Assembly: GCA_019241645.1 (NCBI GenBank)
Contig: JAFAWQ010000039.1
Location: forward strand, 62,001-126,000
Direction of reading: 5' to 3'
From: Alphaproteobacteria bacterium
GTDB lineage: Bacteria > Pseudomonadota > Alphaproteobacteria > Micropepsales > Micropepsaceae
Length of the DNA: 64,000 nucleotides
Shown: positions 8,107 through 58,819 of the stretch, piece after piece
Numbering within the stretch: position 1 is the first letter of the stretch
How the letters are laid out: each line of letters begins with the position of its first letter
The notes under the pieces: generated by a model
What the model saw: only the letters and a program-made list of their open reading frames with translations
Database searches by the model: none
Told to the model about the DNA's origin: nothing
Translations under genes and position numbers: made by a program

Positions 8107-8781
8107 ATGAGCCAGGTGCCGGTTCATTTCCTGCACGTGCCGAAAACCGGCGGCAGCGCCATCAGGGCGGCGTTGGAACCGGTCGCGCAATCGTTCGGCC
8201 TTCAGCTTCACCGGCACAAGGTTGCACTCGCGGACATTCCCAATGGCGAAGGCGTGGTTGTTTTTCTTCGCCACCCGGTGACGCGCTTCATCAGCGCCTT
8301 CAACAGCCGCCTGCGCCGCGGGGCGCCGCATCACCAGGGGCGACACACCAAACGGGAAGAAATCGCCTTCGCGCAATTTCAAACACCCAATGCGCTGGCG
8401 GAAGCCCTGGCGAGCGGTGACGCGGATAAGAAGGCGGCGGCGGAGTTCGCCATCAATGTCATCTCCCACACGCGCCGCCGTTTGATCGACATGCTGGGCA
8501 GCATCGCGGATGTGAAACAGCGGCGTCGCGACCTCGTGTTTATCGGTTTTCAGGAAGCGCTCGCGGACGATTTCGAGCGCCTGAAGCAGCGCCTGTCACT
8601 GCCTGCATCGCTTGCATTGCCGGCAGACGATATCGTGGCGCACCGGATGCCGCCCGGCTTCGATACCGAGTTGAGCCAGGAAGGCCGCAGCGCCATCAAG
8701 GATTGGTATCGCGAAGACATCGAACTGTTTCGCTATCTGCGTTCCGTGGCGGCTGAACTTTCGGACTTCAGAAGTAGCTGA
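8107..8781 (+). CDS. Sulfotransferase family 2-like protein
   Basis: FLHVPKTGGSAIRAAL (5' PAPS loop motif) and VVFLRHPVTRFISAFNS (3' PAPS motif). Confidence 0.85.
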   Translation: MSQVPVHFLHVPKTGGSAIRAALEPVAQSFGLQLHRHKVALADIPNGEGVVVFLRHPVTRFISAFNSRLRRGAPHHQGRHTKREEIAFAQFQTPNALAEALASGDADKKAAAEFAINVISHTRRRLIDMLGSIADVKQRRRDLVFIGFQEALADDFERLKQRLSLPASLALPADDIVAHRMPPGFDTELSQEGRSAIKDWYREDIELFRYLRSVAAELSDFRSS

Positions 8782-10498
8782 CGAGACGCACTTCGCCGCG
8801 CGCTCCGCCGCCGCCGGCACCCGAATTGTTGCCATTGGACGATGCACCGCCGCCCGCGCCGCCGCCGCCGGGCGTTCCACCGCTGCCGCCAGCTCCGCCT
8901 GCTGCGGCCGAATTTCCGCCGCCGCCTCCACCGCCCGCGCCGCCCCATTGATGGACGGTGTCACTAATGCTGCCGCCATTGCCGCCATTGCTTCCGGTAG
9001 TTCCTGCCGCGCCGCCATTCGTGCGGCTATTCGACGGCGTACTTCCGTTCGATCCCGCCGTGCCGGCAAACGCTGTGTTCGCGGTCGACATGCCGCCGCC
9101 ATTGCCGCCATTGCCGGGACCTGCGCCGTCGTTCGACGCAGCGGCTGTTGCTGTGACCGAAGTTGCGGTGACGGCAACGGCCGTGGCGCCTGCCAGCGCG
9201 ACTTGCTGGCTCAAAGTCGCAGAGGCAGCAGCACCGCCGCCCACTCCGGCCTGTCCGCCGAGCGCGATGAGATGCGCGCCGAAACTCGATGTTCCACCTG
9301 CGCCGCCGGCGTTTCCATCGGTGCTGTCGGCGCTCTGCGCCGCACCGCCGGAACCGGCTGCTCCGATTGTGATGCTCTCGCTTGCGGAGATTGCGGACGC
9401 GGCAAAGCTCCAGCGGTTGAGAACCCCGCTCTGTCCGCCTTGGCCGCCCGAGCGCGCGCTTCCTGCAGCGCCGCGCCTTCCCGATCCGCCGCCGGCACCG
9501 GCGCCGATCACCGTGGCTTCGATGGATTGCGCGAGCGGCGGCTTCGTGTAGGTGCCGTTGGCGGTGAACACTTGCGCGAGCGGCGCGATATTCCAGCGCA
9601 CCGGCGTCCAGGCGCCATCCCAGAAGGCGAACATCGCTTCGTCGTATTGCGACGACAGCCACGCCATATCCGTGCCACCGCTGGTCTTCACTGTGACGCG
9701 GTTGGCGCTGGAATCCTTCTTGCGCACGATCACCCAATCGTCGGCATCGGCGCCCGCAGGAAGCGTGATATTGAAGGCGCCGCCGCTGGCGTCGGCGCGG
9801 ACGACGCGGCCGAGATGCGTGGCGCCGAGCGTTGCAGTGCCGCTGATGTCGGTATGCTTCAGCAGCACGCTGCCCGTGTTGCGGTTGAGGACCACGGCTT
9901 CATAGAAGGTCGTGCCGTCCGGCGAGACCTTGAAGTGGAAATTGTCGTCGCCGGTGAGGCCGATTTCCGCGCGGCCCGAGAAATTGGTTTGATACAGCAA
10001 CGAGGCGGTGTCGCCTGCAGCGTGCTTGTTCAACTTCGCTTGCACGCTTGCGCCGATGTGATTGAACAGCACGGCAGAGCTGGCGACGCTGAGCTTGTTG
10101 GTGGCATCGGCTGTGGCGTTGATGCCGAGCATGGGCACGTTCTGCAGCGGTACGGCGCTGACGAAATCCGCCCAAGCCAAACCGTTGTAGAAGATGAGCT
10201 TCGTTTCGTCGGCCACATAGGCGCTGAGCCCTTCGAACGGCGCATAGAAACGCCAGCCGCCGTCGATGGCGTAGGCGAGCTTGCCACTTTGGCCTGTCCA
10301 GGCGCCGGTGCCGGCGGCTTTGACGAGATAAGTGTCGCCATCGTCCGGACTCGCGGGCGGTGCTGACAAATCGCGGTCCAGAATGGTGGTGGCGATCAGC
10401 GCATCGAGCCCGAGCAGCGCTTCGTTGTGGGTGACGTGCTTCTGCGATTGCGCGGCCGCGAGCAGCGGCAACGCCACGCGCGGCGTGGTGTCGGACAT
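8768..10498 (-). CDS. DUF2793-type GTA/phage tail fibre protein with Gly-rich C-terminus
   Basis: MSDTTPRVALPLLAAAQSQKHVTHNEALLGLDALI...DGDTYLV...W..YAIDGGWRFYAPFEG matches DUF2793; C-terminal GGxGGxG repeats. Confidence 0.88.
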   Translation of the reverse strand: MSDTTPRVALPLLAAAQSQKHVTHNEALLGLDALIATTILDRDLSAPPASPDDGDTYLVKAAGTGAWTGQSGKLAYAIDGGWRFYAPFEGLSAYVADETKLIFYNGLAWADFVSAVPLQNVPMLGINATADATNKLSVASSAVLFNHIGASVQAKLNKHAAGDTASLLYQTNFSGRAEIGLTGDDNFHFKVSPDGTTFYEAVVLNRNTGSVLLKHTDISGTATLGATHLGRVVRADASGGAFNITLPAGADADDWVIVRKKDSSANRVTVKTSGGTDMAWLSSQYDEAMFAFWDGAWTPVRWNIAPLAQVFTANGTYTKPPLAQSIEATVIGAGAGGGSGRRGAAGSARSGGQGGQSGVLNRWSFAASAISASESITIGAAGSGGAAQSADSTDGNAGGAGGTSSFGAHLIALGGQAGVGGGAAASATLSQQVALAGATAVAVTATSVTATAAASNDGAGPGNGGNGGGMSTANTAFAGTAGSNGSTPSNSRTNGGAAGTTGSNGGNGGSISDTVHQWGGAGGGGGGGNSAAAGGAGGSGGTPGGGGAGGGASSNGNNSGAGGGGARGEVRLVSYF

Positions 10499-10534
10499 GA
10501 TGTGGTTCCTTGAAGATCGATGAACAGATTTGTC

Positions 10535-10676
10535 CTTCACCTTCCCCCCTTGTGGGGGAAGGTGGCTCGCTCGCACACGAGTGCGAGCGAGACGAAAGGG
10601 GGGCTGTTTGTGTTCCCCCCTTCAGTCATCCGCCGCTGGCGCGACGGCTGACAGCTTCCCCCACAAGAGGGGAAGC
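10535..10676. repeat. Palindromic element E1
   Basis: cttcacctt cccccttgtggggg aaggtgg ... cttcccccacaagagggg; inverted arms. Confidence 0.8.
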
Positions 10677-26728: not shown

Positions 26729-26871
26729 TTCACCTCCCCCAACGTGGGGAGGTCGAAGTGGCGAGCGAAGCGAGACACTTCGGGTGGGGGGCGAAGGGAG
26801 CATACTCCCCCACCCGATCCATTTCCGCTTCGCTCAAATGGATCGACCTCCCCACGTCGGGGGAGGTGAAT
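26729..26871. repeat. Palindromic element E10
   Basis: cacctcccccaacgtggggaggtcgaagtggcgagcgaagcgagacacttcgggtgggg...gacctccccacgtcgggggaggtga. Confidence 0.9.
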
Positions 26872-28160
26872 CAGTAGCGTACCTTCGGAACTCCCTGGCG
26901 CTGCTGCGGGAACAGTTCCGTCAGGGCCCAAACCAGCGCATCGAGGCGGTCGGGAGATTTGCCGGAGCCGTCATACTGGCAGAGCTGATCCTCCAGTTGC
27001 GGAAACACGCCGGCGTGATGCACGCGGCCATTTTCGTACATTGCCGACACCGGCTCGGCGCGTAGCAGCTTGCCTTTGGAGGCGTGCACTTTCCTGACAT
27101 TCATGTTGGAATGCGCGTTGAACAACGTGCTCTTCACCATGTCGCCGCCTTGGTTGGCTTCGGCCACCACGCAATCGGCTTCGTACTGTTCGTAGGCATC
27201 GGCCACGCGATCGGCCCATTGCTTGGCGCTGAGCCGTTCGCGCGTGAAGTCGGCGAGCACGTAGGCGTCATCTTCTACCCTGCCGGCAACTACGATGCCG
27301 CATGCGCCTGTCTGACTCGCCGGAGGATCGACGCCGACGACAACGCGCGTGCAGTGCGGCTCCTGCCTCACCCGCGCGCTTTCGATCCATTCGCGGCGCC
27401 ACAACGCGCCTTCCACATCCTCGATGATTTCGCCATCCAGCTCCTGGCGGCCCAATCGCGTTTTGCCGTAAGTTTTCTTCATCGTGGCGATGAACGCCTT
27501 CGGCAGATTGGCCTTGTTCTCATACGTCGTGCTTTTGGTCACAATGCAATCGGACGACTTTGCGAGGTCGAGCAGCGCCGGAATCGGCCGAGGCGTGGTG
27601 GTGAGCATCAGCCTGGGATCCTCTCCCAGCCGCAATCCCATGCGCAGCATGTCGAGCGCATTCTGCGCCTCCGGCCATTTGCAGAACTCATCGCCCCAGG
27701 CGAGATCGAACTGATAGCCGCGAAGAGAATCCGGCTCGTCGGCGCTCATGACGCAGGCTTCGGCACCGTTGGCCGGCCAGCGCACACGGCGCAAGGATGG
27801 CTCATATTCCGCCCCGGGACTGACAGAGAGCAATCCCGCCGGGCCTTCGATCATCACCATGCGCGCATCGCCATGGGTGGCGGCAATGAGCGCCACCCGT
27901 TTGGCGCGGCCGCTGCGAACGTGCTCCGCCACCCATTCGGCGCCGGCGCGGGTTTTTCCCGCCCCGCGTCCGCCAAGAAACAACCAGATGCGCCAGTCGC
28001 CTTCTGGCTCATATTGTTCATCTCGCGCCCAGAATGACCATGTTCCATGCAGCTCTTTGGCTTGCGCTTCAGTCAGACCCCGGAAGAGTTCGTCTCTCTC
28101 GTTCAATTGTAACGATGCGAGTGACCTCACGCTGAAGCGCTTCCAAGGCAGTTCCGTCAT
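26871..28160 (-). CDS. Terminase large subunit (gp2-like)
   Basis: WRIWLFLGGRGAGKTRAGAEWVAEHVRSG (Walker A), FDLAWGDEFCKW (Walker B), nuclease region VVGVDPPAS. Confidence 0.95.
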   Translation of the reverse strand: MTELPWKRFSVRSLASLQLNERDELFRGLTEAQAKELHGTWSFWARDEQYEPEGDWRIWLFLGGRGAGKTRAGAEWVAEHVRSGRAKRVALIAATHGDARMVMIEGPAGLLSVSPGAEYEPSLRRVRWPANGAEACVMSADEPDSLRGYQFDLAWGDEFCKWPEAQNALDMLRMGLRLGEDPRLMLTTTPRPIPALLDLAKSSDCIVTKSTTYENKANLPKAFIATMKKTYGKTRLGRQELDGEIIEDVEGALWRREWIESARVRQEPHCTRVVVGVDPPASQTGACGIVVAGRVEDDAYVLADFTRERLSAKQWADRVADAYEQYEADCVVAEANQGGDMVKSTLFNAHSNMNVRKVHASKGKLLRAEPVSAMYENGRVHHAGVFPQLEDQLCQYDGSGKSPDRLDALVWALTELFPQQRQGVPKVRY

Positions 28161-28458
28161 TCTTGCTTACCTGACTCTTGCGCGCGGCGGCGCGGCCGGC
28201 TTCGACATTGGCGAGCCGTTCCATGGTGCGTTCCAGCGAAGCGAGAATGCGCGCATCGCGCTCGCGCACGGCCGCTTCCTCGGCATTTTTCTTTCCGGTG
28301 TGTTCCAGCAAATTCATTTGCCGCGTCAGTTCGTTGAAGATACGCATGACGAGTTCGTCCATCTTGTCGGAGTCGATATCGGAGGGCTTCAGCCCTTTGG
28401 TCGAAAGCGGCGGGCGCGAATCCGCGCTCGCCGCCGGTGTGTCCGGCACGTGAGGCAT
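28069..28458 (-). CDS. GTA gp1-like protein (small terminase position)
   Basis: ATG at 28458 with AGGAAG upstream; helical, precedes TerL; weak sequence signature. Confidence 0.7.
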   Translation of the reverse strand: MPHVPDTPAASADSRPPLSTKGLKPSDIDSDKMDELVMRIFNELTRQMNLLEHTGKKNAEEAAVRERDARILASLERTMERLANVEAGRAAARKSQVSKNDGTALEALQREVTRIVTIERERRTLPGSD

Positions 28459-28475: not shown

Positions 28476-29165
28476 TTAGATCGGAACGTTGGTCAGCTGC
28501 GAAACGACCGGCGTTTCCTTGCCGATCCATTCGTACTGAAAGTGATCGCCCTGCGTGACGTTCAGCACCAGGCGCGGATGAAACACCGCGAGGTTCACGC
28601 CGCCATCGTACCGCACACTGTCGAAGCAGAGACCGTTCGAGCCGCTTTTGCGCAGCGCCACCCCATAGGGCTGCGATTGCGCATAGCTGCTCGGCGAATA
28701 TAGCGCCGGCAATTCTTTGCGCATCCCTCGCAGATCGTGAAACTCGTCGTCCACATCCGCGCGCAGCTCGCGCATCTGGATCGTCTGGTAATAACGCGCC
28801 GCCGAATGCGAAAGCCGGCGGGTGTGGTGATACACCGTCTCCACAATCGCCGTCTGCAGGTCGAATGAGCAGTACCAGCAGCCCAACGTGCCGTCGGTGA
28901 ATCGTCCGCCTTGCTCATCGGCATGCAGCCAGGCGGCCATGACGATGTTCGCGTGCGGAATGCCGACCACCCATTCGCTTTCCGGCAGCTCGTGCAATCG
29001 CTCCAGCGGAACACGCAGCCGATCGTTGGTCATCATCTCCAGCTCATACGCCGCCTGGATGTCGGCCGGCACGCTCACGCGATCGAACACGCCGATGGTC
29101 GGCCAGCGGCTGGCGATCAGTCGGCGCGTGGCTTGCGTGATGTGCGCCAGTTTCGGCGGCGTCAC
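28476..29165 (-). CDS. RES-domain toxin (NAD+-degrading type)
   Basis: RES-family pattern: GCWYCSFDLQTAIVETVYHHTRRL, GLCFDSVRYDGGVNLAVFHP. Confidence 0.88.
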   Translation of the reverse strand: MTPPKLAHITQATRRLIASRWPTIGVFDRVSVPADIQAAYELEMMTNDRLRVPLERLHELPESEWVVGIPHANIVMAAWLHADEQGGRFTDGTLGCWYCSFDLQTAIVETVYHHTRRLSHSAARYYQTIQMRELRADVDDEFHDLRGMRKELPALYSPSSYAQSQPYGVALRKSGSNGLCFDSVRYDGGVNLAVFHPRLVLNVTQGDHFQYEWIGKETPVVSQLTNVPI

Positions 29166-29608
29166 CGTACGCCGCGCCAGGCATCAAGGTAGCGCCGCGC
29201 GGCGTAGAGATCTTCGATGCCGCCGCGCAGCATGCGCGCCAGCGGCGAGAAGCCACCGAACACGGCCTCCGTGTTGGCGCTTTTGAGCCAGCGCTTGCCG
29301 CCATCGCCATCGGCGAACAAGAGCGCCATGCCCTTGTAGATGCCCATCACCAGCGACACGCGCTCCAGCTGATCGCGCGACAGCGCCGCGACCTGCCCGG
29401 CTTTCCAGTTGTGCAACGACGACTTCGAAATCCCGCCCAGCAGGGTTCGCTGCTGCTCGGTGGTCAGGCCCCAGTCATCGGCGATATTGAAAAAGGTGCG
29501 CAGTCCCGGCCCGGTGAGCCGTGTGCGATCCGCCAGACTATCGAGGGAACTTCGCGGCGGCTGCCATTTCACCGCTGCTTCGGCAAAGCCCATTTCGGCG
29601 TTCTCCAT
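29162..29608 (-). CDS. Xre/MbcA/ParS-type antitoxin
   Basis: LGGISKSSLHNWKAGQ HTH and C-terminal toxin-binding-like FGGFSPLARMLRGGIEDLYAARRYLDAWRG; overlaps RES gene by 4 nt. Confidence 0.88.
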   Translation of the reverse strand: MENAEMGFAEAAVKWQPPRSSLDSLADRTRLTGPGLRTFFNIADDWGLTTEQQRTLLGGISKSSLHNWKAGQVAALSRDQLERVSLVMGIYKGMALLFADGDGGKRWLKSANTEAVFGGFSPLARMLRGGIEDLYAARRYLDAWRGVR

Positions 29609-29634
29609 AATTGGAGTATTAGTCCATAATTGGA
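29604..29634. promoter_or_regulatory. Tandem 12-bp operator-like boxes of the TA operon
   Basis: TCCATAATTGGA at 29604-29615 and 29623-29634, 19-bp spacing. Confidence 0.7.
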
Positions 29635-29842
29635 CAACGATCAAGAGCTGTCAAAGTTCGCCCTCCGGGTTAGACCGTGGTGATCGCGAGGCAGAATTCG
29701 GGAGATGGGGATAATATGCAAACGGAGCGGCACGGTGTCAACAGCCGATATGAAAATTTTTGCTCAATGGCGTAAAAAATCATATCTGCGGGAAATCGTT
29801 ACGTTTTTACCTTCAGCACGGCCGAGTAGCCAGGAGGTTGGC

Positions 29843-57294: not shown

Positions 57295-57487
57295 GCGGCG
57301 GATGCGTCATAAAAAGACCCGAGGAGTGCCGATACGCAACCTGCCAGCGGGGCGAAGCCACAGCTCGCAAGGCGAAACCGCCATTTGTACACGCAATAAA
57401 ATTTTTTCTTAAATATCGTCTACCACGTCCTATTATGTGCTACTATTCCTTCTATGGGTACAAGATGACACAGGACGCGGCAAAAAC

Positions 57488-57823
57488 ATGGCTATAGTCG
57501 GAACAAAACAGGAATATCGTGCACCTATCCAGATTGCGCAGGCGGTGGCGGCCCATGCGTTCGGCCTGCCGTTAGCGGCTATCGCGAACGCCGAAGTGCC
57601 GGCCGGCCCGCAGGCCTTCAGGGGCCGGCAGCTCGCCATTTATCTCTCCCGCTCAGTCCTGAAACGCAGTCTGCGAGGGGTGGGCCGCGCCTTCGGCCGT
57701 ACGCATCCGACCGTGCTGCACGCCTGCCGTCGGATCGAGGAAGAACGCGAAGATCCCGTCTTCGACCGCACAGTGGAATGGCTGGAAATGCTGGTGCGGC
57801 GTGCCGCCCGGGTGGCGGCATGA
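57488..57823 (+). CDS. gafY: GafY-like protein: DnaA-domain-IV-like helix-turn-helix
   Basis: SVLKRSLRGVGRAFGRTHPTVLHACRRIEEEREDPVFDRTVEWLE; followed by DUF6456 gene via ATGA overlap. Confidence 0.78.
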   Translation: MAIVGTKQEYRAPIQIAQAVAAHAFGLPLAAIANAEVPAGPQAFRGRQLAIYLSRSVLKRSLRGVGRAFGRTHPTVLHACRRIEEEREDPVFDRTVEWLEMLVRRAARVAA

Positions 57824-58620
57824 GCGCGATACCCGAGCACGAACTGCAGCGAGAAGGCCGGCGTGTTTTGCGCAAGCTGGCCGATTCCAAGGCGCACCTG
57901 GAGCACCTCCCCAACGGCAGCTGGACCGTGGTCCAGCGCGGCGACCGCGAGTCCGGCCGCATGCGAATCGCATCCGGACTGATCAAGGCGTTCCGCGAGC
58001 GTGGCTGGCTCGAGGCAGCGGAGGGCGAGGCATTGCGCCTCGGCGCCGGCGGGCGCAGCTGGCTGATCGCGGAGCTGGCCGGGATCGATATCTCGGCCGC
58101 GCAGCACCAGTCGCTGGGTTTGCGGCTGGTGCAGAACGACCGTGGCGGCGAGGATCTGGTGGTGGTCAATCAGGCGGAGTCGCCGCTAGCCTGGCTGCAT
58201 GCCCGCGGCGCGCTCGACAGCGTTCAGTTCGAGGCCGGCGAGCGCCTGCGCCGGGACTATACCCTGGCGCAGCTCGAGCCCCGGCTATGCACCGATCTGA
58301 GTGCACCCGTCGTTTTGGGCGGCAACGGCCCGAAAACGATGTTCATTTCCGACACTGTTCTCGCCGCCAAACAGCGTTTGGCGAAAGCCTTGGGGGCTGT
58401 GGGACCGGGCCTTTCGGACGTCCTGTTCGATGTCTGCTGCGCGCTTAAGGGGCTCGAAACGGCAGAGAAAGAGAAAAGCTGGCCGCGCCGTTCTGGCAAG
58501 GTTGTCTTGGCACTCGCGCTCGATCGCTTGGCCGACCACTACGGTCTGCGGCCCGCGGCCATCTCAGGCCGCATGCGCAGCTGGTCGGCCGACAACCTCG
58601 AACCGGCGCGGCCGATTTAA
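57820..58620 (+). CDS. gafZ: GafZ-like DUF6456 protein
   Basis: GERLRRDYTLAQLEPRLCTDLSAP...ISDTVLAAKQRLAKALGAVGPGLSDVLFDVCCALKGLETAEKEKSWPRRSGKVVLALALDRLADHYGL. Confidence 0.8.
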   Translation: MSAIPEHELQREGRRVLRKLADSKAHLEHLPNGSWTVVQRGDRESGRMRIASGLIKAFRERGWLEAAEGEALRLGAGGRSWLIAELAGIDISAAQHQSLGLRLVQNDRGGEDLVVVNQAESPLAWLHARGALDSVQFEAGERLRRDYTLAQLEPRLCTDLSAPVVLGGNGPKTMFISDTVLAAKQRLAKALGAVGPGLSDVLFDVCCALKGLETAEKEKSWPRRSGKVVLALALDRLADHYGLRPAAISGRMRSWSADNLEPARPI

Positions 58621-58725
58621 TGGGGTCGAAAAACCCAAAAGTGGTGATATCGACTGCTGCCCCTCAGGCCCAACCACAAAATGTTGTGCCGTGGTGCATG
58701 CAGCGGCGGCGGCTGGCGAGCGGCT

Positions 58726-58819
58726 GGCGGACAGGGAGGGATTCGAACCCTCGAAACGGCTCATCACCGTTTACGCACTTTCCAGGCGCGCGCCTTCAAC
58801 CGCTCGGCCACCTGTCCGC
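58726..58819 (-). tRNA. tRNA-Ser(GGA)
   Basis: Reverse complement gcggacaggtggccgagcggttgaaggcgcgcgcctGGAaagtgcgtaaacggtgatgagccgtttcgagggttcgaatccctccctgtccgc: 7-bp acceptor stem, long variable arm, TTCGAATC loop. Confidence 0.95.

Follow-up and report, generated by a model that had tools for sequence, protein, structure and literature searches.

In all probability (about 0.88), the two overlapping genes described here constitute a bona fide gafYZ pair, the activator switch of the gene transfer agent (GTA) of this bacterium, the function as an activator being assigned by homology. Gene transfer agents are phage-like particles which move DNA between cells. The pair is identified as gafYZ because it exists in a single copy, the same pair is found in relatives, it co-occurs with the GTA terminase and both are undetected in a genome of the same genus (G239). 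A preliminary description had proposed this identity, and the domains, the gene order and overlap kept in relatives, the uniqueness, the co-occurrence and co-absence with the GTA, a tree position apart from DnaA and purifying selection all agree with it, as do promoter elements which match the published Caulobacter circuit. The window mentioned below is the whole stretch of 64,000 nucleotides that was analysed.

The Gene Pair and Its Products

The pair is composed of the following genes:

57488..57823, + strand: gafY, 111 aa, a predicted DnaA-domain-IV-like DNA-binding protein with a Bac_DnaA_C match
57820..58620, + strand: gafZ, 266 aa, a DUF6456 protein, in ATGA overlap with gafY

Open reading frame coordinates and Pfam matches coincide with the earlier proposal of a DnaA-domain-IV-like gene and a DUF6456 gene overlapping by ATGA (57820-57823). 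In the profile comparison, both products scored over the Pfam cut-offs, that is, GafY with 46.9 bits against Bac_DnaA_C (cut-off 31.5) and GafZ with 141.8 bits against DUF6456 (cut-off 26.3). The closest NCBIfam family for GafY is an unnamed small-protein family, NF004688, and the score is under the family cut-off. Unlike the DnaA replication initiators, GafY has no AAA+ domain III and consists of the domain IV-like part only. In a tree of domain IV the DnaA proteins form one clade (support 99/98), and GafY of the window and GafY of the closest relative, G289, stand outside it, many other forks being weakly supported. Both genes are constrained in comparison with locus L035 (dN/dS about 0.25, an approximate value because dS is above 1), and gafY, gafZ and the terminase gene are under constraint between this genome and G289.

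The predicted model of GafZ has a mean pLDDT of 82. The model gave no significant match in the PDB; the best local matches were chains of sigma region 4 with good target TM-scores and E = 1.8, so that the resemblance to sigma region 4 in this fold search is suggestive only. A sequence search of solved structures with GafZ likewise gave matches at chance level only. Significant viral matches are DUF6456 and related phage proteins, including that of roseophage RDJL Phi 1, in which a GafA homologue has been reported (PMC6363796). In addition, the IMG/VR contigs L122-L124 encode short DUF6456-like proteins with no matching N-terminal part, which are possible phage relatives of the C-terminal domain of GafZ.

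A tRNA-Ser (GGA) gene lies just 3' of gafZ on the opposite strand (58725-58817, - strand), followed by ABC-transporter-like genes and no phage genes. In the loci of ten relatives no tRNA gene was found near gafYZ, that is, the tRNA synteny is not conserved.

Single Copy in the Genome and the Same Pair in Relatives

Another GafYZ pair elsewhere would have told against the identification; a search of the genome (2.87 Mb, 99.67% complete) for further copies gave none. It has one DUF6456 gene, which is gafZ, and two Bac_DnaA_C genes over the cut-off, which are dnaA and gafY. No second pair was found, there being no other DUF6456 gene and, over the cut-off, no other DnaA-IV-like gene except dnaA.

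The closest GafZ sequences (65 to 45% identity) come from metagenome-assembled genomes of Alphaproteobacteria, one of them a Rhizomicrobium. About 20 loci across the Alphaproteobacteria show the same order gafY-gafZ and the 4-base overlap. The two genes are fused in L007 and L008; Albimonas pacifica and Bosea have single frames. The DUF6456 profile also matches in the control genome of C. vibrioides, and the fused relatives carry both domains. Split and fused forms were already known, an adjacent GafY having been reported for 494 of 759 GafZ homologues (PMC9632790), and GafA matches carry the DUF6456 annotation (PMC9638019). Several loci (L024, L026, L030, L096, L103, L109 and L112, including named Sphingomonas) have a DUF6456 gene without a detected adjoining GafY, and so GafZ may need no partner in those genomes or may work with a divergent one.

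Association and Linkage with the GTA

Strong DUF6456 matches were compared with the GTA terminase in 289 class-level genomes. The terminase is present in 24 of the 31 genomes with a strong DUF6456 match and in 49 of the remaining 258 (Fisher p = 1.1e-10); because the genomes are not phylogenetically independent, p-values of this kind overstate the evidence. Conversely, 49 of the 73 genomes with a GTA terminase are devoid of a strong DUF6456 gene, and therefore GafZ is not universal. Searches of G239, a genome of the same genus, detected neither the terminase nor gafZ, gafY or a candidate for the repressor RogA, a joint absence which may be a single event.

The preliminary description had placed the activator about 29 kb from the GTA operon and called the two loosely linked. 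The measured distance from the terminase to the DUF6456 domain is 30.0 kb, and such linkage is common in the class: both genes lie within 60 kb on one contig in 12 of the 24 genomes (0.7 to 54 kb) versus about 3.8% expected by chance. The 30-kb spacing is typical of this frequent loose linkage, which suggests that in many lineages the activator has only partly dispersed from an ancestral element.

The GTA Cluster and Its Likely Promoter

The genome which carries the pair also has a GTA cluster, with terminase, connector, capsid and tail genes identified by family matches. The head of the cluster is arranged as follows, from upstream to downstream:

29752..29781, - strand: A/T-tract directly preceding the GTA promoter, a possible IHF site judging from its sequence
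29694..29741, - strand: likely GTA operon promoter, upstream of the Xre gene, conserved with G289 and related to the GTA promoters of relatives
28476..29644, - strand: Xre antitoxin-like and RES toxin-like genes (Pfam), between the promoter and the small terminase gene
28069..28458, - strand: probable small terminase gene of the GTA (g1), 129 aa, judged from its position and its likeness to the genes which open the clusters of relatives
26871..28160, - strand: GTA large terminase (Terminase_6N/6C), with head and tail genes downstream to about 11938

A DUF2793 protein, possibly a GTA accessory protein, is encoded 3' of the tail genes (8768-10576, - strand).

The promoter has a -35 box TTGACA (29741-29736, - strand), a partial palindrome ACCGTGCCGCT (29736-29726, - strand), a -10-like CATATT (29718-29713, - strand) and a conserved initial region (29707-29695). 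The window and G289 have in common the order TTGACA, palindrome, CATATTAT and then CCCATCTYCSGAATT, and the promoter sequence is found at one site per genome in both. The palindrome is imperfect and half-matching in the window and perfect in G289. Caulobacter has its GafZ element, a palindrome, between -35 and -10 (PMC11150451). Among 39 GTA upstream regions, a perfect A[GC]CG-N2-3-CG[GC]T beside TTG occurs in 11, versus a Markov expectation of 0.73, a maximum of 3 in 300 shuffles and 2 on the opposite strand; the pattern was set after some of these regions had been seen, and four of the matches are from families outside its definition.

The genome has four IHF/HU-family genes. Inspection by eye of the gafY and GTA promoters gave no convincing GafY-binding element common to both. 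Furthermore, a second -10-like ATCCC/CATCTCCC and GAATTG are conserved in the initial transcribed region of the window (29707-29695, - strand) and of L136-L145. By analogy with Q-type antitermination one might speculate that this region serves as a signal at which GafZ pauses or is loaded.

The Xre-RES pair is also found in G289 at the same position with 76-80% identity; in the other relatives examined, the region upstream of the GTA showed no such pair. Twin TCCAATTATGGA repeats (29635-29602) by the module suggest that it may have an autoregulated promoter of its own. PADLOC models gave no match with either the Xre-RES pair or gafYZ. The idea that GTA operons have a recurrent slot for cargo at their head was considered and rejected: besides Xre-RES, a clear extra gene is seen in G292 only, and the longer open reading frames in L175 and L179 resemble, by eye, larger small-terminase genes.

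The gafY Promoter and a RogA Candidate

The region in front of gafY was analysed for AT-richness and RogA-like sites:

57395..57487, + strand: AT-rich gafYZ promoter region with an extended -10-like TGCTACTAT and a half RogA-type box at 57436-57451

As the preliminary description had noted, this region is AT-rich: its GC content is 36.6% versus 62.6% for the window, below 99.97% of equal-length stretches and thus in the lowest 0.03%. GTGCTAYTATTCCT within it is conserved with L035.

Caulobacter RogA is a 213-aa LexA-like protein which acts at GGAA-N4-TTCC repeats (PMC9632790). The search for RogA-like sites gave a divided answer: they are clear in the gafY promoters of relatives, and the window keeps a degenerate half only. 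GGA-N6-TCC is present in 13 of 45 promoters, where it lies upstream of the GafY domain by about 90-145 bases. Most relatives also have related boxes in front of rogA. An inverted repeat of the GGAA-N4-TTCC type is found at the gafYZ core promoter of relatives, while the window and L035 have only the degenerate half; the half-box at 57436-57451 is a low-scoring match in register with the boxes of relatives. A full RogA-type box is missing at both gafY and rogA in this genome and in G289. The RogA candidate is a 215-aa HTH+S24 protein (G000:C5:48259-48903) distinct from LexA, a candidate of this kind being present in 10 of the 11 genomes searched, and it is likely to be orthologous to RogA. GDSM and a lysine further downstream are retained in the candidates and resemble the Ser-Lys pair of LexA, whereas RogA of C. 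crescentus is reportedly without key cleavage residues.

Proposed Circuit and Alternative Explanations

If the Caulobacter work (PMC11150451, PMC9632790) applies here, GafY would bind upstream of the GTA promoter, IHF would bend the DNA there, and GafY would recruit the sigma-70 RNA polymerase. GafZ would load at the palindrome beside the -35 box and, as an antiterminator, accompany the polymerase along the long operon, and the LexA-like repressor RogA would silence gafYZ until relieved. In this genome, transcription from the GTA promoter would first pass through the Xre-RES insertion and only then reach the small terminase gene. A tentative extension, which we think somewhat doubtful, is that the circuit was rewired in this lineage, Xre-RES being driven by GTA activation because it lies between the GafYZ-dependent promoter and that gene, and gafYZ and rogA having lost the full RogA-type operator, with a shift in GTA timing.

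An improbable alternative, though the least improbable of those weighed, is that gafYZ is genuine but has ceased to drive a functional GTA in this genome, owing to decay of the operon or of its promoter. The half-matching palindrome, the missing full RogA-type box and the two-gene insertion ahead of the small terminase gene would fit such decay; however, gafY, gafZ and the terminase are constrained in comparison with G289, which has the same insertion, and the promoter is conserved with G289, whose palindrome is perfect. Much less credible is that the small gene encodes a DnaA-like modulator of chromosome replication unrelated to the GTA. GafY is similar to DnaA in domain IV, and its Caulobacter homologue, once called hdaB, altered replication on overexpression (earlier work cited in PMC9632790), but that effect has been re-read as GTA production (PMC9632790), and GafY has a DUF6456 partner at every locus studied, is missing from G239, a genome without the GTA terminase, and falls outside the DnaA clade.

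It is slightly less credible still that the pair belongs to a prophage or to what is left of a phage, and that it controls the late genes of a phage. DUF6456-like proteins do exist in phages, and a GafA homologue is reported in RDJL Phi 1, but the pair is conserved in chromosomes throughout the class, follows the GTA terminase in its occurrence and has the tRNA-Ser and ABC-transporter-like genes after it instead of phage genes.

Comparison with Known Systems

The antiterminators of the lambda Q type are analogous in mode of action alone: the proposal for GafZ is that it loads at an element within the promoter and then moves along with the polymerase (PMC11150451), and no sequence or fold relationship was found between them. 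GafA of Rhodobacter capsulatus (rcc01865) has an N-terminal DnaA-like part and a C-terminal sigma-like/DUF6456 part, as in the window pair, and activates the GTA promoter, a role which the pair would share by homology. GafA, however, is one fused protein whose central region binds the omega subunit, whereas the parts are separate genes in the window.

GafY/GafZ of Caulobacter crescentus (CCNA_01111/01112) are, as in the window, adjacent separate genes, DnaA-IV-like and then DUF6456-type. The RogA-type operator of Caulobacter is paralleled in the gafY promoters of the window's relatives, and the palindrome between -35 and -10 of its GTA promoter in relatives as well, but both are degenerate in the window. 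Judging from the gene numbers, the pair and the GTA would be much further apart in Caulobacter than the 30 kb of the window; moreover, the Xre-RES module following the GTA promoter sets the window apart from Caulobacter. The lineage of this genome is added to those with GafYZ-controlled GTAs, and sequence elements, namely a palindrome adjoining the -35 box in GTA promoters as well as the RogA-type box at gafY and rogA, are extended beyond Caulobacter. The gafYZ switch is ordinary in kind, but its connection to the genes of the particle seems to have changed in this lineage.
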